A stretch of DNA of 64,000 nucleotides from positions 1,116,001-1,180,000 of the forward strand of contig LVKA01000011.1 in assembly GCA_001709035.1 (NCBI GenBank). Direction: 5' to 3'. Below are positions 29,617 to 35,655 of the stretch, one piece after another. A program made the position numbers and the translations under genes. Below the pieces are notes generated by a model. That model did not search any database. It saw only the letters and a program-made list of their open reading frames with translations, and was not told the DNA's origin. Numbering within the stretch: position 1 is the stretch's first letter; every line of letters begins with the position of its first letter. Source of the stretch: Candidatus Thiodiazotropha endoloripes. Lineage in GTDB: Bacteria > Pseudomonadota > Gammaproteobacteria > Chromatiales > Chromatiaceae.

Positions 29617-29796
29617 TTACACAGCGGCGTGGTCTTCTCTCAACACACAATCTGTGCTCAGAGAAAACCACGCCTTGCGCAGGTTTTGTTTCTCCTTCCT
29701 ACGTTTGGCCTTGGTGGATTTATCATGCACACCACCTTTGCGCAGCATCGGGTGATTGTGCAACAGATTGCGTGACCTGTGAGCTTTTTTCTTCAT
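29617..29796 (-). CDS. Small basic protein downstream of rtcB
   Basis: 59 aa, beginning MKKKAHRSRNLLHNHPMLRK and continuing with a Lys/Arg-rich stretch (GGVHDKSTKAKRRKEKQ), ending near LREDHAAV. A clear GAGGAG site precedes the ATG at 29796. It lies 52 bp past rtcB on the same strand, so it is likely the last gene of the rtcB operon. The charge suggests RNA or ribosome binding (inference). Similar short basic proteins are familiar from proteobacterial genomes but I know no function. Its 3' third contains a 15-base inverted repeat (29626-29640 with 29660-29674, one mismatch). Confidence 0.7.
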   Translation of the reverse strand: MKKKAHRSRNLLHNHPMLRKGGVHDKSTKAKRRKEKQNLRKAWFSLSTDCVLREDHAAV

Positions 29797-29828
29797 CAGA
29801 AACTCCTCATTATTAACCCTATAATAAA

Positions 29829-29847
29829 TGGGCCTTGCCCCGGCCCA
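29829..29847 (-). terminator. Hairpin just after rtcB
   Basis: TGGGCC and GGCCCA form a 6-bp stem with a 7-base loop directly after the rtcB stop; on the minus strand TTTATTATAG follows. A weak or partial terminator that would lower expression of the 59-aa gene. Confidence 0.45.
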
Positions 29848-29848
29848 C

Positions 29849-31048
29849 TTAACCTTTTACACACATCACCTGCTTCAGGGTGTGTACCACTTCAACCAGG
29901 TCGTTCTGGTTGGTCATCACCTGGTCGATGTCCTTATAGGCACCGGGAATCTCATCGATCACCCCTTTGTCCTTGCGACACTCCACGCCCTGGGTCTGGG
30001 ATTCCAGATCGGCCCGGTTGAATTGTCGTTTGGCCTTGGAACGGGACATACGGCGTCCCGCACCATGGGAGCAGGAGCAGAACGAGGCCTCACTACCTTT
30101 GCCTCGGACGATATAGGATTTGGCGCCCATCGAACCGGGGATGATTCCCAGCTCCCCTTCACCTGCACGTATGGCGCCTTTACGGGTGACATAGACTTCG
30201 GCGCCGTAGTGGTGTTCCCGCACCACATAATTGTGGTGACAGTTGATTGCCTCTTTGGTGATGGTGAAGTGAGGCAGATGCCTCCCCAACAGATCCAACA
30301 ACTGCTGCATCATCTCCCGGCGATTGATCATGGCATAGTCCTGGGCCCAATCGACCGCCTCGAAGTAATCATCGAAATGCTGAGCGCCCTCACTGAAGTA
30401 GGCCAGGTCCCGGTCCGGTAGTCTTCCCAGCTGATCCCCCATATCCTTGCGTGCCAGCTCGATGAAATAGCGACCAATCACATTGCCGATACCCCGGGAA
30501 CCGGAGTGCAGCATGACCCAGACTGCGTCATTTTCATCCAGGCAGAGCTCGATGAAATGATTGCCGCCTCCCAGAGTCGCCAGTTGCCGAACCCAGATGT
30601 CGTAGGGTCGCTTGCGCTGCATCCTGGCGATCGCCGGATGCCGATTGAGAATCTGATCCAGCCGTTTTGCCAAAGGCACAATGGTTGAGCGTTTGACCGG
30701 ATCCCGATCGTGCATTTCGAATCCGACCGGAATCGCCTGCTCGATACGATTACGCAGCATACGCAGGCTATCTGGCAGTTCGTCTGCTTTCAGGGAGAGC
30801 CGGATGGCATTCATACCACAACCGATGTCTACACCAACCGCTGCCGGCACAATCGCTCCCTTGGTGGGAATTACTGAGCCGACCGTTGCACCGATACCCG
30901 CATGAACATCGGGCATGGCCGCCACATGGTGATGGATGAAAGGCATACGGGATACATTCTCCAGCTGGTTCAGTGCGGTGGATTCCGTATCGCCGGTCCA
31001 GATATGGACCGGCACCTTTCCTTTGTTGAGTGTTTGCAGAATAGGCAT
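29849..31048 (-). CDS. rtcB: RNA-splicing ligase RtcB
   Basis: 399 aa. GTP- and Mn-dependent ligase that joins 2',3'-cyclic phosphate (or 3'-phosphate) RNA ends to 5'-OH ends; repairs cleaved tRNA and rRNA. Visible: VGVDIGCGMNAIRL with the metal cysteine, GGGNHFIELC, HSGSRGIGN, NCHHNYVVREHHYG and the guanylation histidine in SCSHGAGRRMSR. The start at 31048 (MPILQTLNKG) has GGAGGG 7 bases upstream; the longer frame to 31132 overlaps the previous gene and is rejected. Third protein-coding member of a slipin-unknown-rtcB set. No rtcA or rtcR is in the window. Confidence 0.96.
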   Translation of the reverse strand: MPILQTLNKGKVPVHIWTGDTESTALNQLENVSRMPFIHHHVAAMPDVHAGIGATVGSVIPTKGAIVPAAVGVDIGCGMNAIRLSLKADELPDSLRMLRNRIEQAIPVGFEMHDRDPVKRSTIVPLAKRLDQILNRHPAIARMQRKRPYDIWVRQLATLGGGNHFIELCLDENDAVWVMLHSGSRGIGNVIGRYFIELARKDMGDQLGRLPDRDLAYFSEGAQHFDDYFEAVDWAQDYAMINRREMMQQLLDLLGRHLPHFTITKEAINCHHNYVVREHHYGAEVYVTRKGAIRAGEGELGIIPGSMGAKSYIVRGKGSEASFCSCSHGAGRRMSRSKAKRQFNRADLESQTQGVECRKDKGVIDEIPGAYKDIDQVMTNQNDLVEVVHTLKQVMCVKG

Positions 31049-31061
31049 GGTTTTACCCTCC

Positions 31062-32009
31062 TCATAGTTCCAGTTTATAAAAACGAGGCGAAATTTTTCC
31101 CCGGCGTAATCGTTTGATCGTACGTCTGTCACTCAGCAGACCAGGCAGTTGATCTGTCAGTTCGAAACAGAACTGCTTTGGCAGGCTGGTGTAGAGTGAT
31201 CTCGGTGGCGCATAGCTGTCCTTGATACGCTTCAGATAGTTACCGACTTCCCAGTTGTGGAACCAGATCCGTTTCAGGCCCAGTTCACGGTGGATAAAGT
31301 CGATGGTTGCTGCAAGCATCGCCTGACTCCACTGTTTGAGCAGTGGTTCGATGAATTTCAAATAGCGACCTGCCAGTGCGGCGGTGGTTTTGAAGCTGTA
31401 GCAATGCATCGGATGCTCATCGGTTGCGCAGCATTGATGCCACTTGTTCAACCAGCTGACATCTCTGATCCAGTCGCTCTGGATCTCTTCGATCAGCACT
31501 TCACCCAGTTGAAGGTCGATATCCAGCCGTGACCAGGCCAGAGTCTCCCGGTAGTAGCGGCGATCACCTCGCTGCAGTACCGGATGACCCCAGTTATTGA
31601 ACGCACCATCCTCAACCGGGTGGATCGATTGACGAAACATCTGGTCATGTTGATGGTTGAAGTTCAGACGCAACACCAGATTGATGCCGGGCCTGGAGGT
31701 CTGTGCAGTTCGGTCGGATTTGCTGCCCCAGGTACCGGCGGTAACCAGGTAGGTGGTGCCGGGTTCCTGCCAATAGCTGTTCAGCAGTTCGCTGCTGATG
31801 TCGCCATTGCCGCAATTGCTGAGTAGCGTGGTAATCGATGGTTTGTTGAGCAGTCGGCCAAACCTGGACCCCTTCAAGGCCTGGATCGACGGATGCTTCT
31901 CTGCTGCGAGTTGCAGCAGTTGCACTGCGTAGTAATCCTGACAATAGGGATAGAGGGTTCTCTCTTTAGGCAGACATGCCAACAGCTCCTGTAAGTCGTT
32001 CTGCTCCAT
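31062..32009 (-). CDS. Uncharacterised 315-aa protein of the rtcB operon
   Basis: Begins MEQNDLQELLACLPKERTLY with AAGGAGA 8 bases upstream and ends 13 bp before the rtcB start, so the two are almost certainly cotranscribed. No signal peptide or transmembrane segment. Notable segments: TYLVTAGTWGSKSDRTAQTS, LVLRLNFNHQHDQMF, a pair of Trp-rich parts (EEIQSDWIRDVSWLNKWHQ and KRIWFHNWEVGNYL), and a strongly basic C terminus (DRRTIKRLRRGKISPRF) that could bind RNA. I recognise no catalytic motif. Context implies a role in RNA repair or in control of RtcB. Confidence 0.8.
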   Translation of the reverse strand: MEQNDLQELLACLPKERTLYPYCQDYYAVQLLQLAAEKHPSIQALKGSRFGRLLNKPSITTLLSNCGNGDISSELLNSYWQEPGTTYLVTAGTWGSKSDRTAQTSRPGINLVLRLNFNHQHDQMFRQSIHPVEDGAFNNWGHPVLQRGDRRYYRETLAWSRLDIDLQLGEVLIEEIQSDWIRDVSWLNKWHQCCATDEHPMHCYSFKTTAALAGRYLKFIEPLLKQWSQAMLAATIDFIHRELGLKRIWFHNWEVGNYLKRIKDSYAPPRSLYTSLPKQFCFELTDQLPGLLSDRRTIKRLRRGKISPRFYKLEL

Positions 32010-32096
32010 GTTCTATCTCCTTGGTTGTTAAGGCGCAGATAGTTTGGCTGTTTGGAGGTTGGATTTTGTACATGGTTGACTCCCGATGTGTTTGCT

Positions 32097-32140
32097 TAGG
32101 GCCTGGTAACAGGCCCTAGGTGCCCGGCCTAATGGCCGGG
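32097..32140. repeat. Two adjacent hairpins between slipin and the 315-aa gene
   Basis: TAGGGCCTG/CAGGCCCTA (9 bp, loop GTAA, 32097-32118) and CCCGGCC/GGCCGGG (7 bp, loop TAAT, 32123-32140). No U tract follows on the minus strand, so they more likely protect or process the polycistronic RNA. The first hairpin shares its arms with an inverted repeat at 58101-58133, so it may be a dispersed element. Confidence 0.65.
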
Positions 32141-32149
32141 TTAATACGG

Positions 32150-33292
32150 TTAGACATTGATCTTCACAGTATCCTTGAGGACACCGTCAAGACCGCCGAA
32201 GACGGTGAGACGATCCACCTTGTCGGTTACCTTTTCCAGAGTCTCCAGCTCCTTCAAACGTAACAGGGTAGGGTTCTCGTCCATCAGCTTTGCGGTGTTC
32301 AGCAGCGAACGGGCCGCTGCGGTCTCCTCACGCCGCTTGATCACGTTGGCCTGAGCCGCCTTCTCGGCCTGAACCACCTGGTTGAGAATCTCCTTCATCT
32401 CACCGGGTAGAATGACATCCTTCAGGCCGACACTGCGCAACTCAAAACCATTTTCCGCTGCTCTGACCGCGACCTTGTCAAACACCTCCCGGTCGACACG
32501 CTCCTTGTCTTCCAGCAGCTTATCCAGGTCACGGGAGCCCACCGCCTGTCGCAGGCCGAATTGCAACTCCCGATAGATCCAGTCAAGGGGCTGCTGCAGC
32601 TTTGAGCGAGCCATTACCGGGTCCACAATCTGAAACTGAGCACCCAGGTTCAGACGCAGCGAAACCTTGTCGCGGGAGAGGATCTCCTGACCCTGCACCT
32701 CCATCGACTGCACACGGGTATCCAACTGCTCTACCTTAACGTGCCGCTTGACCGCCCAAAAGGCGTGAAAGCCAGGCTTCAGGGTTTCGCGTAACTCACC
32801 GTCAACCAGCAGCAGACCGAGGTAGTGGTCCGATACTTCGGCGGTATGGATATAGGGCTGCAGCTCTCGCGCCACAACGCCACCCCGGGAACGGAAGACC
32901 GTCTCCACCAGATGCCTGGAGACCGGTAGATCGTTGTGCAGATCGACTCGGTCGACACGCAAGCTGTAGGGCTGCTTCCAGTAGATCCTGCGCTCACCCG
33001 GCGCCAGCAGATCGATGAACTTGTTGTCCCGATAGACCACACCGATCTGATGCTCGGTCAGGTCCACCAGTTCCAGGTAGGAGCCCAGTAGATCCTTGGC
33101 GTCCTGCAACAGGAACTCAGCATTTTTATTGCTGCATACCGCCTGGCCCAGGTCGTGCAGTTCGATCTTTACACGATTGAATGGGTCGAAGTGGCGATAG
33201 ACACCAGGCTCCAGCACCTCGATCAGCTGACTGTCACGAAACAGAAAACCGCGCTCGTGCTGGGCCACAACGATGCGCTTAGTTGCAAACAT
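32150..33292 (-). CDS. Slipin family (SPFH/band 7) protein
   Basis: 380 aa. The SPFH domain is central to C-terminal (LGLLLVDGELRETLKPGFHAF interrupted here only by motif choice, then VQGQEILSRDKVSLRLNLGA and FELRSVGLKDVILPGEMKE), followed by a helical segment (NQVVQAEKAAQANVIKRR). The N-terminal part repeats a band-7-like half (QHERGFLFRDSQLIEVLEPG). No clear transmembrane helix is present, so membrane attachment is uncertain. Slipins are frequent companions of rtcB in proteobacteria, but their part in RNA repair is not defined. AAGGAGAAAAAC precedes the ATG. First large protein gene of the operon. Confidence 0.92.
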   Translation of the reverse strand: MFATKRIVVAQHERGFLFRDSQLIEVLEPGVYRHFDPFNRVKIELHDLGQAVCSNKNAEFLLQDAKDLLGSYLELVDLTEHQIGVVYRDNKFIDLLAPGERRIYWKQPYSLRVDRVDLHNDLPVSRHLVETVFRSRGGVVARELQPYIHTAEVSDHYLGLLLVDGELRETLKPGFHAFWAVKRHVKVEQLDTRVQSMEVQGQEILSRDKVSLRLNLGAQFQIVDPVMARSKLQQPLDWIYRELQFGLRQAVGSRDLDKLLEDKERVDREVFDKVAVRAAENGFELRSVGLKDVILPGEMKEILNQVVQAEKAAQANVIKRREETAAARSLLNTAKLMDENPTLLRLKELETLEKVTDKVDRLTVFGGLDGVLKDTVKINV

Positions 33293-33567
33293 TGTTTTTC
33301 TCCTTGTTGATTAATGATTGCTTTTTCGAAACACACCGGATGATGTGTTTCGGAAAAGCTTGGCCCCACACCTGCAGCGCGGGATCGGTTGGGGCGAGAG
33401 GGTGGGCGGGAATGCGGTCGACAAAACAAAACGACACTCCATTGCCGGGTTGTCTGTTGATGGCGTTCCAGCTGACCCAATGCACCATGTCGAACGCGGG
33501 CGCTGCAAGTGTTGCAGCGATCCATTAAAAAACATCTCAATGAATGCCGCTGGGGCGTTGCTTGGTT
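33293..33567 (-). other. Leader between tRNA-like elements and slipin
   Basis: About 275 bp without a supported gene. It contains a large inverted repeat next to the slipin start (listed separately). Short minus-strand frames here lack ribosome sites. I find no good sigma-54 promoter (GG-N10-GC) of the kind expected for an RtcR-controlled operon. Confidence 0.5.
33320..33359 (-). promoter_or_regulatory. 16-bp inverted repeat in the slipin leader
   Basis: GCTTTTTCGAAACACA pairs with TGTGTTTCGGAAAAGC (one mismatch) around an 8-base loop, starting 28 bp before the slipin start. As RNA it would be a stable hairpin in the 5' leader; as DNA it could be an operator. A terminator is less likely, as no U tract follows. 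Confidence 0.6.
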
Positions 33568-33624
33568 GTGGAAACTAAGCGGAGTTGAACCGCTGGGCGT
33601 GAAGGCCCTTACCAGAGTCGGATA
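33568..33624 (-). other. Second tRNA-like segment (T-arm and hairpin, no 5' acceptor)
   Basis: On the minus strand, directly after the tRNA-Lys-like sequence, come a D-loop-like CTCTGGTAAG, a hairpin GGGC-cttcac-GCCC, and a perfect T-arm AGCGG-TTCAACT-CCGCT. It has no 5' acceptor strand of its own, but its 3' TTTCCAC can pair at six of seven positions with the 5' GTGGATA of the preceding tRNA-like element, which would enclose both in one RNA domain. Confidence 0.55.
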
Positions 33625-33688
33625 GGAGGAGTCGAACCTCCGTTCAATCGATTAAAAGTCGATTGCTCTACCACTGAGCTATATCCAC
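33617..33688 (-). tRNA. tRNA-Lys(UUU)-like element, degenerate acceptor
   Basis: All tRNA arms can be drawn: D arm GCTC-AGTGGTA-GAGC, anticodon arm ATCGA-CTTTTAA-TCGAT with anticodon TTT, 5-base variable loop, T arm GGAGG-TTCGACT-CCTCC. The acceptor GTGGATA pairs with TATCCGA at only six positions (one a wobble), the 1-72 pair is G-A, and no CCA is encoded. It may be a genuine but divergent tRNA or a tRNA mimic. It lies within the minus-strand transcript leading to slipin and rtcB. Confidence 0.6.
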
Positions 33689-33807
33689 GTGGTGTCTTCA
33701 AGCTACTCGTGTGCGGTACACAGGATTGCACGGCAAGCTGTGCCGGCGGGCCATGCCGAGACCCGGCCGCTGTCACTTTGAGTCTTTATGAGGACTTGTG
33801 TCAACCG
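33689..33807 (-). other. GC-rich hairpin region between tRNA-like elements
   Basis: On the minus strand this holds several short GC-rich inverted repeats, for example CGGCA-cagct-TGCCG and GTGTACCGCACAC. No open frame with a ribosome site. It looks like part of a structured RNA rather than coding sequence; boundaries are not known. Confidence 0.4.
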
Positions 33808-33860
33808 CGAGGAGTCGAACCTCGGCGGATGAGAGATCTATTCATGATCTGAAATAGTTG
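33808..33860 (-). other. Isolated tRNA T-arm with adjacent anticodon-like hairpin
   Basis: CGAGG-TTCGACT-CCTCG is a perfect T arm (33808-33824), extended by CCG/CGG. Just 5' of it AGATC-ATGAATA-GATCT forms a 7-base-loop hairpin with GAA in the anticodon position. I cannot find matching acceptor or D-arm halves, so this is a tRNA fragment or mimic, not a complete tRNA. Confidence 0.5.
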
Positions 33861-33866
33861 TCTCTG

Positions 33867-34043
33867 TTAGTGCTTTCGTAGCACTTGCTTTGCAGACAAC
33901 AGTTTTTGAAATCTATGGCCGGATCCACATGGGCAGGGATCGTTTCGACCGAGCTTTTCGATCAGCTCCTTGTCACCATGAACGAGTCGAACACCGCGCT
34001 TAACCTGTGTCTCGGAGGGAAAGCCTTTGCGTCGTTTACTCAT
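33867..34043 (-). CDS. SEC-C motif mini-protein with an eroded C terminus
   Basis: 58 aa: [20 protein letters not shown], then [37 protein letters not shown]. The [14 protein letters not shown] segment is the SEC-C zinc motif (as in SecA and other nucleic-acid-associated proteins), but the usual closing CC or CH is replaced by LL, so zinc binding may be impaired. The ATG at 34043 is preceded by a short leader frame (34048-34089) whose stop is 4 bases upstream, suggesting translational coupling. Sits between a tRNA and tRNA-like sequences on the same strand as slipin-rtcB. Confidence 0.7.
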
Positions 34044-34047
34044 GCTC

Positions 34048-34089
34048 TCAAAAGGAGTGGTCTGTTTTATCGTATCGGTTGTGTTTCAT
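34048..34089 (-). CDS. 13-codon leader peptide upstream of the SEC-C mini-protein
   Basis: [13 protein letters not shown] and a stop, with a near-ideal TTTTGGAGGTG ribosome site 5 bases before the ATG. The SEC-C start follows in another frame 4 bases past the stop. The site is far better than any before the SEC-C gene, so coupling through the leader is likely. The tRNA 3' end lies about 30 bases upstream. No run of one amino acid suggests a classical attenuator. Confidence 0.5.
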
Positions 34090-34119
34090 GTCGCACCTCC
34101 AAAAAAGTGTTTTTTCGGT

Positions 34120-34196
34120 TGGTAGGGATGGTGAGATTCGAACTCACAACAAACAGGTTCTGAACCAGCTGCGTCTGCCAATTGCGCCACATCCCC
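34120..34196 (-). tRNA. Class I tRNA with CAG (Leu-decoding) anticodon, CCA encoded
   Basis: Complete cloverleaf: acceptor GGGGATG/CATCCCT, D arm with AATTGGCAGA loop, anticodon arm GCTGG-TTCAGAA-CCTGT (one mismatch and one wobble), T arm GTGAG-TTCGAAT-CTCAC, discriminator A and encoded CCA. The anticodon CAG reads leucine CUG codons, yet the variable loop has 5 bases, while bacterial tRNA-Leu has a long variable arm. It is therefore unlikely to be a normal tRNA-Leu. It is the first element of the minus-strand series leading to rtcB. Confidence 0.75.
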
Positions 34197-34221
34197 ATGG
34201 AAAAATCTTAGGGGTGATTCC

Positions 34222-34368
34222 CCGTATGGTACTTACTTAAGCACTATTTGGTGGGGCATGGTCCCACCCTACTGTTGAATTCATGGTGTAGGGTGGGGCC
34301 ATGCCCCACCAAGACCCTTTAATGCAACTAGATGCAATGAGTTTTAATGCTTAAGTAAGTACCATTCG
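34222..34368. mobile_element. Miniature inverted-repeat element (MITE-like), about 145 bp
   Basis: ATGGTACTTACTTAAGCA at 34226-34243 is repeated perfectly in inverted orientation at 34348-34365; three further bases (CCG) match outside after one mismatch. Inside are two inverted copies of GTGGGGCATGGCCCCAC-type palindromes with GTAGGGTGGG edges. No coding capacity. A one-armed relative is at 13842-13895. Such elements are usually moved by a transposase encoded elsewhere; none is in this window. Confidence 0.8.
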
Positions 34369-34389
34369 GTTGATTACCACACTTAAATT

Positions 34390-34416
34390 GGTCCGCTTAC
34401 CCAGAGTCAGCGGACC
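34390..34416. other. Hairpin GGTCCGCT/AGCGGACC
   Basis: A perfect 8-bp stem with an 11-base loop beside the miniature element. It is the 3'-most hairpin of a densely structured, non-coding stretch (34390-34750) when read on the minus strand. Confidence 0.5.
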
Positions 34417-34684
34417 GGTGCTTCGGGTATCCGTCGAGACTTCTCCCCTGGCACTGCACAGCTGCGCTTGTCGTTTCATGATTCGATTCGAACAGCAGCA
34501 CTACCTCTTGTCCCTGGTCGGACAGGTGACCATTCCCGGCCCATAACCGAGACATGAGGGGACGAGGCTTGCTTGGTATTTGCCCCAAGCGGCCACAAAC
34601 CCTGTCCATACACAGGACAGGGATTAATCGTTTTCCTTATTGTTAAAGAGCGTCCGGGATTCAGCCCGGGTTTTCCCCGGGCAA
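34417..34684 (-). other. Structured non-coding region upstream of the tRNA/rtcB operon
   Basis: No supported gene. Contains CCCTGTCC-atacaca-GGACAGGG (34600-34622) and GCCCGGG-ttttc-CCCGGGC (about 34667-34685). On the minus strand it also includes CTGTTCGAATCG, recalling a T loop, without its stem. This might hold a small structured RNA (for example a Y-RNA-like molecule with tRNA mimicry), but that is speculative. Confidence 0.4.
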
Positions 34685-34719
34685 TAAAAAACCCCCGGGG
34701 TTTTCACCAACCGGGGGTT
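34685..34719 (-). terminator. Strong Rho-independent terminator, minus strand
   Basis: AACCCCCGG and CCGGGGGTT form a perfect 9-bp stem with a 12-base loop; on the minus strand six U follow (AAAAAA at 34685-34690). No annotated gene points into it, so it ends an unrecognised minus-strand transcript or insulates the downstream rtcB block from the XRE promoter region. An 8-bp inverted repeat AGGTGTCA/TGACACCT follows at 34727-34749. Confidence 0.8.
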
Positions 34720-34973
34720 GTTCCGGGAGGTGTCAGTAGTGCATGACACCTTCCCGTATGTTTTGGGGTGTAGGCGTCAGGTCATACCTGTTATGTCCCT
34801 GCTGTTAAGCAGGAAGCTGACAGTTTGTATATTTGCTGGATACGCAGCCACGCAAGCAGACCCGGTTTCCAGGGATGCTGGTGTGTGGATGTTGCGTAAG
34901 TCCGATAGATACATAGTCAGTTTCCGTTTCAATAAATGTGGGAGAAGCGACAGTCGATTTGACGCTTCCCATA

Positions 34974-34993
34974 ACTTGGTGCGCAAGTATAAT
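34974..34993 (+). promoter_or_regulatory. -10 box and overlapping palindrome before the XRE regulator gene
   Basis: A perfect TATAAT (34988-34993) is overlapped on its left by ACTTG-gtgcg-CAAGT (34974-34988). No good -35 box stands at 16-18 bases, which suits an activated or repressor-covered promoter. The palindrome is a candidate autoregulatory operator for the XRE protein. Confidence 0.5.
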
Positions 34994-35028
34994 ACTGATC
35001 TTTTATTTTGCAAGAGAAAATTTTGCAT

Positions 35029-35655
35029 ATGACAAAAAATAATTCAATCGGCCAGTCGCGCAGTAAAGACCCGGTCGCGGTGAAGATTGGTAAGCGTATT
35101 GCTCAGGCCCGCAAGATGGCCGGCTTCAAGACAGCCAAGACCTTCAGGGAGAAGTTACCGAAGTGGCCGGAAAACAGGCTCTCCTGGTATGAGGCCGGTT
35201 ACTCCATGCCCCATCCCGGCCATGTTGAGATCATTGCCAGGGCCACAGGCACATCGACCTGCTGGATCATGTTCGGACTTGGTCCGATCCGTTCCGGCGA
35301 GCGGGATCTGCAAGCGGTAAGGCATCAGAACCTGGTCTTCCTTTATCGCCAGACAGAGACGGAAGGACCGAAGGCGATCGCTGAATTTCTCATGGCCAGC
35401 CGGTTCAAGGCCGCTCAGCTGGCCGACCATATTGACAATCCCTTCAAACATATTGGCGAGCGTCTAGCGCGCAACATCGAAAAGGCCAGTGACAGACCAG
35501 TTAAATGGTTGGATGAGCAACATATTGAGTCGGATGGCTTATGTGGATCATTTCCTGATGATCTGCGGGAGCTGATGACAATCTATTCAGAGATGAACAG
35601 CAAATCGAGGAAGATGCTGATTGCCATGGCGCGAACCATGTCTGAACATGTTTGA
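35029..35655 (+). CDS. XRE-family helix-turn-helix regulator
   Basis: 208 aa. Residues about 18-85 fit an XRE/Cro-C1 HTH domain (VKIGKRIAQARKMAGFKTAK, then LSWYEAGYSMPHPGHVEIIA and ATGTSTCWIMFG). The rest is helical, without a LexA-like peptidase signature. The ATG at 35029 is chosen since the HTH follows directly; AAGAG is 12 bases upstream. It sits between the rtcB block and folP, faces away from the rtcB operon, and could control itself or the neighbouring minus-strand transcript. Phage-like origin is possible but no other phage gene is near. Confidence 0.85.
   Translation: MTKNNSIGQSRSKDPVAVKIGKRIAQARKMAGFKTAKTFREKLPKWPENRLSWYEAGYSMPHPGHVEIIARATGTSTCWIMFGLGPIRSGERDLQAVRHQNLVFLYRQTETEGPKAIAEFLMASRFKAAQLADHIDNPFKHIGERLARNIEKASDRPVKWLDEQHIESDGLCGSFPDDLRELMTIYSEMNSKSRKMLIAMARTMSEHV

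Follow-up and report, generated by a model that had tools for sequence, protein, structure and literature searches.

A tRNA-mimic RNA in a slipin/RtcB operon

The subject of this analysis is an RNA-repair operon on the minus strand of a 64,000-nucleotide (nt) stretch of the Candidatus Thiodiazotropha endoloripes genome, hereafter the window (contig LVKA01000011.1; G000:C10:1116001-1180000 in our numbering, where G000 is the genome of the window), whose nearest protein and contig relatives are from Candidatus Thiodiazotropha and other lucinid-clam symbionts. Upstream of its slipin gene the operon encodes a composite RNA in which a tRNA-like cloverleaf is joined to a 5′ domain that is not part of a tRNA. 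Judged by sequence comparison, this composite is a real, conserved and covarying tRNA-mimic RNA of slipin/RtcB loci, and the arrangement suggests an RNA-repair system that uses tRNA mimics. In order, the operon consists of a leader open reading frame (ORF) with a terminator-like hairpin, a tRNA-Leu-like element, a SEC-C gene, a T-arm hairpin, the composite RNA, slipin, p315 (a protein of no known family), rtcB and a gene for a protein of 59 amino acids (aa); it is divergent from the gene of a 215-aa regulator. An earlier note on this DNA had listed parts of this kind, and every part that it named is present and on the minus strand (ARAGORN, Rfam, Pfam). The RNA features are as follows.

33550..33775, minus: composite RNA unit (R2 family; 184.2 bits, training member)
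33689..33775, minus: non-tRNA 5′ domain of the composite RNA (R3 family; 65.5 bits, training member)
33617..33688, minus: element 2, a tRNA-Lys(UUU)-like cloverleaf without CCA and with acceptor position 1 unpaired (ARAGORN, Rfam)
33578..33608, minus: short hairpin and T arm 2, helices 10 and 11 (alignment and covariation)
33802..33831, minus: T-arm hairpin 1, with a 6+5-bp stem, one unpaired base, a T-loop cap and one mismatch in the window (by reading)
34120..34196, minus: element 1, 77 nt, tRNA-Leu(CAG)-like, with encoded CCA and a short variable loop (ARAGORN, Rfam)

The layout of the unit is shared by 13 aligned loci and comprises a two-helix 5′ domain, the cloverleaf, a hairpin, a short hairpin and T arm 2, the hairpin after the cloverleaf being missing in the four Thiodiazotropha rows; this alignment (A7) leaves out L071, L075, L176, L178, L182 and the f143-family loci. 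RNAalifold assigns 47 pairs to the 13 sequences, with changes on both sides in 31 of them. Paired cells reach 95.9%, compared with 78.5% after shuffling and 34-45% in slid controls, the structure having been derived from the tested alignment, which favours it over the slid controls; compensatory cells number 108, against 30 in shuffles. In the 5′ domain on its own, 10 of 13 pairs show compensatory changes, a number equalled or exceeded in 4 of 500 shuffles, and none of the shuffles attained its covariation score (0.618 vs 0.274). The cloverleaf and the second T arm, which the earlier note had read as separate, do exist, but both are parts of this one structured RNA with its non-tRNA 5′ domain. 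The two isolated T arms claimed there are likewise present and recur in relatives. A 12-bp minihelix considered for T arm 1 proved to be off by one base, the stem being one of 6+5 bp.

The tRNA-like elements

A check of the upstream region with tRNA and RNA models, which the earlier note had proposed, returned two tRNA-like genes by ARAGORN and Rfam but no Y RNA match; the Rfam tRNA scores are 54.2 bits for 34196-34120 and 64 bits for about 33688-33617, the latter being element 2. The labels Leu(CAG) and Lys(UUU) are given by the anticodon alone. G000 has 46 tRNA matches, elements 1 and 2 included, and canonical Lys(UUU), Leu(CAG) and Leu(UAG) are among the matches listed; therefore neither element fills a decoding gap. 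What had been described as a complete first tRNA is indeed tRNA-like at 34196-34120, but it is Leu(CAG) by anticodon only and lacks the long variable arm of a tRNA-Leu, with 77 nt as opposed to 85-87 nt for the Leu tRNAs of G000 among the matches listed. Apart from that arm it is similar to Leu(UAG) of G000, even in a T-T mismatch in the anticodon stem.

Element 2 is a cloverleaf with 4/4, 5/5 and 5/5 pairs in its D, anticodon and T stems; its acceptor falls short of 7 bp, with 6/7 pairs, and it ends in the tail CTCT instead of CCA, the end found in 29 of the 29 seed tRNAs of G000. Its anticodon is not kept among orthologues, reading TTT, TTT, CAT and TTA in four close loci. With its stems and T loop preserved, an anticodon loop that changes from one close locus to the next, and no CCA in the window, element 2 is, to judge from these comparisons, not a fixed decoding tRNA but a poor decoder. 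More broadly, 70 aligned tRNA-like elements, a few of which are ordinary tRNAs that lie nearby, mostly preserve the T loop and the D, anticodon and T stems; the acceptor has fewer than seven pairs in 39 of them, 24 are without a CCA tail, and 13 have an anticodon loop of 5, 6, 8 or 9 nt.

Some unusual elements were also seen. Elsewhere in G000 there is an odd tRNA-Met(CAT)-like gene of 72 nt with a degenerate D arm (L118, G000:C7:367895-367963; 33.3 bits). Upstream of an HNH gene, L073 2947-3104 holds a tRNA-Leu(CAG)-like element with a very long insert replacing the variable arm (by reading), and L076 7214-7299 (p315 on the plus strand) holds a tRNA-Tyr-like element whose T loop (TGCAATT) does not contain the usual TTC.

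Association of the RNA with slipin

Three models were used to trace the RNA in other genomes: R1, a tRNA model from the 29 canonical tRNAs of G000, with the operon elements excluded and a cut of E up to 0.001; R2, a model of the whole composite unit; and R3, a model of the 5′ domain without the tRNA part. The p315 profile matched 13 of 22 genomes in the genus, 21 of 210 in the order and 12 of 109 in a second order; in the gammaproteobacterial sample it matched 13 of 369. The arrangement of genes differs among the loci, but where a full-length slipin of this type occurs, a tRNA-like element usually lies 5′ of it on the same strand. An upstream R1 match was found in 29 of 32 slipin loci, whereas among 31 p315 loci that lack a full-length slipin it was found in 4 (L071, L072, L076 and L077; Fisher p 2e-10), and the contrast holds when L074, L083 and L096, whose contigs end ≤411 bases upstream, are left aside (4/28, p 1.5e-9). 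The other 27 of these 31 loci, many of them with rtcB, have no tRNA-like element. The count of 4 of 31 omits the tRNA-Phe(gaa) of L099, which lies 4.1 kb upstream of p315, and the weak element-1 matches of L068 and L069 (E 0.12 and 0.36) lie below the cut. L135 ends at a contig edge and is counted as a miss (19.5 bits, E 0.0055); copies are counted once (L003/L065, L002/L063, L004/L067, L010/L082), L097 and L170 are one genome, L005 shares a contig with L083, and L011, with a partial p315, is left out. A comparison of rtcB neighbourhoods had been suggested in the earlier note, and the tRNA-like sequences are conserved at slipin/RtcB loci as it anticipated, but they follow slipin more closely than rtcB. 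They are a conserved part of these loci beside the repair genes, and the lack of conservation in relatives that would have spoken against the idea is not seen. Stray tRNA genes are ruled out as an explanation, since the association recurs over many families and tracks slipin.

The class-wide searches agree with this pattern. A slipin search of the 369 gammaproteobacteria set apart 21 genomes at 347-641 bits, the next match lying at 145 bits and the rest at ≤104 bits. The tRNA-like element precedes slipin in 19 of the 21; the remaining two (G448 and G269) have T-arm matches only and a D-arm-less remnant (by reading). Of eight generic band-7 loci none has a tRNA-like element, nor does L160, which has a partial slipin match, with about 1.5 kb covered on each side. 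R2 matches in all 369 genomes, and many of these matches are confined to cloverleaf positions 95-162; it is thus insufficient below 95 bits, and R3 was built for this reason. R3 matches in 12 of the 369 genomes, nine of which are in its training set (G491, G477 and G448 are not), and in 12 of 12 the match lies just upstream of slipin on the same strand; the 11 best R2 matches (>95 bits) are also all at slipin loci. When single loci are searched, L071 and L183 match R3 as well, as does L184 at E 0.002; a few more slipin genomes match weakly, and f143-family loci are weak or missed. Among loci without full-length slipin, R3 at E up to 0.001 matches none except L071, which carries a slipin remnant. 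In 138 genomes of the phylum R3 matches G000 only, so that the 5′ domain is known from Gammaproteobacteria only. G348, in the same phylum sample, was missed though its locus L183 matches R3 at E 1.3e-4, which indicates that strict filters miss members. With strict R2 and R3 filters and a limited number of candidates scored per genome (5 each for R2 and A3, 11 for R3 and, in the class, 6 for A1), absence elsewhere is not strict.

Natural deletions were found within the genus Thiodiazotropha, though they represent few events, possibly of shared ancestry. Five loci (L063, L066, L067, L068 and L069) keep p315 and rtcB, and in all of them slipin and the composite RNA are both gone. A SEC-C gene and a weak match to element 1 are retained in L068 and L069. 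In L063 and L066 the sequence passes, by reading, from the beginning of element 1 into the 3′ end of slipin, and in L071 the cloverleaf is joined to the slipin remnant. A search for phage carriage of this slipin returned none in 50,697 records at E 1e-20.

Related slipin loci occur in Escherichia coli, Citrobacter, Photobacterium and Burkholderia. In four Burkholderia species and in Photobacterium (5 of 7 named records), R1 detects a tRNA-like element that lies 260-830 bases 5′ of slipin, and the E. coli and Citrobacter loci have no cloverleaf by R1, R2 or Rfam. In E. coli, RlaP, a member of an RNA-repair nucleotidyltransferase family, follows slipin. By reading, L230 5676-5994 (E. coli) and L231 5680-5997 (Citrobacter) each contain a sigma-54-like site, and their conserved leader includes an isolated T arm as well as a hairpin that shows one compensatory change. 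Arrays of tRNA genes surround slipin in L177 940-4317 and L175 2451-3646 (slipin on the plus strand), several of them with CCA and of ordinary appearance; L177 also has a partial rtcB upstream.

Possible functions of the RNA

Taken together, these results suggest that the tRNA mimic acts in RNA repair, probably either as a bait for anticodon nucleases or as an RNA for docking. We favour the bait, while placing it by itself somewhat short of probable; the mimic would be cut in place of real tRNA. The locus would be silent until tRNA or translation is damaged, through a repressor and a leader attenuator here and through RtcR in some other lineages, and after damage it would be transcribed as one RNA. 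In its elbow and anticodon stem-loop, the tRNA-shaped unit would then offer anticodon-loop ribonucleases an acceptable substrate, and the mimic would be cut as bait, perhaps to be re-sealed by RtcB, sparing real tRNA; the 5′ domain would be a likely docking site that holds the RNA to the slipin/RtcB machinery at the membrane. The earlier note had proposed decoys or sensors, substrates of RtcB, or guides, and differences in the anticodon loop between close loci would favour bait or substrate over a fixed guide: in the window, L003, L064 and L070 the loop varies in 6 of its 7 columns and the remainder of the element in 10 of 61 (Fisher p 4.4e-4), and in the 13-row alignment the anticodon loop, with an entropy of 0.91, exceeds the T loop (0.35) and the D loop (0.47). 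One may extend this to a chromosomal tRNA-mimic family of gammaproteobacterial slipin/RtcB loci, with elements at the corresponding position in Burkholderia and, for E. coli, a form with the T arm, that evolves as anticodon-nuclease bait, the loop following the attacker against an unchanged fold and 5′ docking domain; we regard this wider proposal as rather doubtful.

Several observations weigh against a bait. The units counted for the p value above are alignment columns from four related sequences. Over 13 rows, the covarying stems and the variable region have entropies of 0.85-1.12, so the anticodon loop is not uniquely variable, and relaxed rather than diversifying change could account for it. 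Of the 70 aligned elements most look sound, with a 7-nt loop in 57 and a CCA end in 46, and R3 recognises the 5′ domain in only 12 of the 21 slipin genomes of the class scan. The tRNA arrays of L175 and L177 fit a supply of spare tRNAs. Finally, the E. coli and Citrobacter loci keep a T arm and hairpins with no anticodon arm, a form that a pure anticodon bait does not explain.

That last form, in E. coli, would suit a docking RNA resembling the Y RNAs, whose 5′ domain would bind slipin, p315 or RtcB and whose tRNA-like module would tether tRNA-handling enzymes or damaged tRNA; only the elbow would matter and the loop would be free, as is consistent with D and T arms and a T loop that are kept beside a variable anticodon loop. 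The tRNA-like domain of YrlA in rtcBA operons provides a precedent (PMC7790460), but G000 has no Ro60 partner and no Y RNA match, and we consider this alternative unlikely, if worth serious attention. Somewhat less likely still is a cis-regulatory leader, in which the tRNA-like fold would be an mRNA operator that is bound by RtcB, p315 or a tRNA enzyme, or cut by RNase P or an anticodon nuclease, and so tunes slipin and rtcB. The element does lie in the 5′ region of slipin, the nearest ARAGORN-called element being 200-1355 bp from the slipin start, and a leader ORF with a terminator-like hairpin and a frameshift-dependent SEC-C gene are found upstream; an operator should keep the loop that is recognised, however, yet the anticodon loop differs between close loci, the spacing to the start codon is long, and several loci have two or three separate tRNA-like elements.

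The elements could also be spare or nuclease-resistant tRNAs, a shrunken array that resupplies translation when tRNAs are cut, in the way suggested for the trn operon of Anabaena and for tRNAs of phages. The arrays of L175 and L177, the CCA of element 1 and of 46 of 70 elements, and the joint repression of a 26-tRNA trn array, rtcB, slipin and an HNH gene by TrcR of Anabaena (PMC10272220) all agree with such a role. Element 2 is nevertheless without CCA and acceptor pair 1, 13 of 70 loops have 5, 6, 8 or 9 nt, anticodons are not kept between sister loci and the non-tRNA 5′ domain covaries, and we judge this explanation improbable. RtcB operons are widespread; a conserved tRNA-mimic RNA at the same locus provides a concrete candidate for a substrate, bait or scaffold and links slipins to RNA repair, and a covariance model finds part of the slipin loci by RNA alone.

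Protein genes and control region

The protein genes of the operon are the following.

32150..33292, minus: slipin (Band_7), 380 aa, RtcB-associated type (Pfam)
31062..32009, minus: p315, with a C-terminal part that is GNAT-like in predicted structure (weak)
29849..31048, minus: rtcB, RNA ligase (PF01139, 434 bits, whole profile)
29617..29796, minus: 59-aa basic protein, behind rtcB in relatives of the genus
33842..34043, minus: SEC-C mini-protein; a conserved +1 frame after UUU (slip 33911-33908) provides the CC of the motif

The whole-profile match to PF01139 identifies an RtcB ligase gene, as expected of an RNA-repair operon, and we place its start at ATG 31048, which corrects the earlier note. 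Neither p315 nor the 59-aa protein matches a Pfam family, and p315 has no sequence relative in PDB. None of five proteins matched the PADLOC models of anti-phage defence, and there is no rtcA among the ten neighbouring proteins scanned. The SEC-C mini-gene had been noted earlier and does give a Pfam match, but its motif is complete only after a +1 shift: it is truncated in frame 0, and the +1 frame after UUU gives K-x-C-C-L-Q-S-K (in the window, L003/L065, L064, L070, L068 and L069), which raises the Pfam score from 30.3 bits to 37.6 bits. The slip point is a stop, UUU-UAA, in L064, L070, L068 and L069, and UUU-CAA also occurs as slip context. This sequence pattern likely reflects a programmed +1 frameshift, which we take to be similar in logic to that of prfB.

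Upstream of these genes, the control region contains:

35008..35655, plus: 215-aa divergent regulator, helix-turn-helix/XRE-like by reading, no Pfam match
34986..35013, minus: sigma-70-like promoter TTGCAA-16-TATACT (consensus match only)
34974..34988, minus: inverted repeat ACTTG-N5-CAAGT, putative operator (sequence reading; similar motif in relatives)
34777..34914, minus: 45-aa leader ORF (aligned in 8 loci)
34686..34756, minus: pair of strong hairpins, of which the second is a terminator-like GC stem followed by a T run, putative attenuator
34370..34684, minus: post-terminator leader segment, conserved (alignment A6, 8 loci)

Many relatives from the same order have the regulator gene beside the locus; f143-family loci do not. 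The sigma-70-like box overlaps the inverted repeat; its consensus occurs twice in the stretch, against 3.9 occurrences expected by shuffling. The leader ORF terminates shortly 5′ of the two hairpins, which are kept in 8 loci with mostly invariant pairs, and the fold of 34805-34684 has an energy of -48.7 kcal/mol (z -3.9). An attempt to prove the attenuator by covariation failed, with both-side changes in only 8 of 52 pairs (alignment A10) and a nearly invariant terminator; by its sequence, the leader ORF with its hairpins possibly resembles an attenuation system. The stretch between tRNA and rtcB had been described as free of strong terminators, and none was read there, but a strong terminator-like hairpin lies upstream, at 34723-34686, behind the leader ORF. 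Of Rfam structures in the leader, only tRNA reaches the gathering score; miRNA-type matches at 34240-34318 are below the cut-off and come from the hairpin of a repeat element. Between the leader and element 1 there is, by reading, an element resembling a miniature inverted-repeat transposable element at 34365-34226, with terminal inverted repeats of about 18 bp and a shorter form in L003.

Control of the window's operon by sigma-54 and RtcR was rejected, the sigma-54 pattern being at chance level in the window and PF06956 (RtcR) absent in G000. RtcR occurs in 7 of the 21 slipin genomes and lies, by coordinates, within about 3 kb of slipin in four (G441, G348, G530 and G269); for this reason the tRNA-damage sensor RtcR and the XRE-like gene may alternate as regulators across lineages.

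Comparison with known systems

Our literature search found no earlier description of this RNA, though the 2016 RNA-repair survey of Burroughs and Aravind may mention it; RFH-RtcB and RlaP are treated in PMC6514570 and PMC7824862. One of the close parallels is the Y RNAs (YrlA and YrlB of rsr-yrlBA-rtcBA operons), where a non-coding RNA with a tRNA-like domain is likewise encoded with RtcB (PMC7790460). The comparison drawn in the earlier note holds as an analogy only: unlike the Y RNA operons, the locus of G000 has a slipin partner, there is no Ro60/Rsr gene in the genome (PF05731, Ro60/TROVE, is absent in G000 and partially matched in 2 of the 21 slipin genomes), and Rfam Y RNA models match neither at gathering score in the window nor at E up to 1 over 33290-35020. 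Unlike what we take to be the structure of YrlA, the RNA of the window has a full cloverleaf with an anticodon arm. The RtcR/sigma-54 rtcBA operon of E. coli and Salmonella is similarly an RtcB operon tied to tRNA damage, in contrast to which the G000 locus has no RtcR in its genome, sigma-54 sites at chance in the window and no rtcA among the neighbours scanned; RtcR is described as sensing tRNA fragments in PMC7790460.

The closest published case found, the TrcR regulon of Anabaena sp. PCC 7120 (rtcB all3526, slipin alr0740, HNH all8564), also brings together tRNA genes, RtcB, slipin and HNH, with one stress-relieved repressor over all targets; unlike in the window, its genes are scattered as a regulon, its regulator is of the ribbon-helix-helix type, and no embedded structured RNA is reported in the sections of PMC10272220 consulted. 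Phage tRNAs reported to evade tRNA-targeting defences (PMC10264068) resemble the elements of the window in their altered anticodon loops, whereas the latter are chromosomal, lie beside repair genes and within a composite RNA, and include some that cannot decode. The tRNA array units reported from mycobacteria and phages (PMC5966550) form clusters like that of L177; the window, by contrast, has two elements, one of which is degenerate and embedded in a composite RNA.

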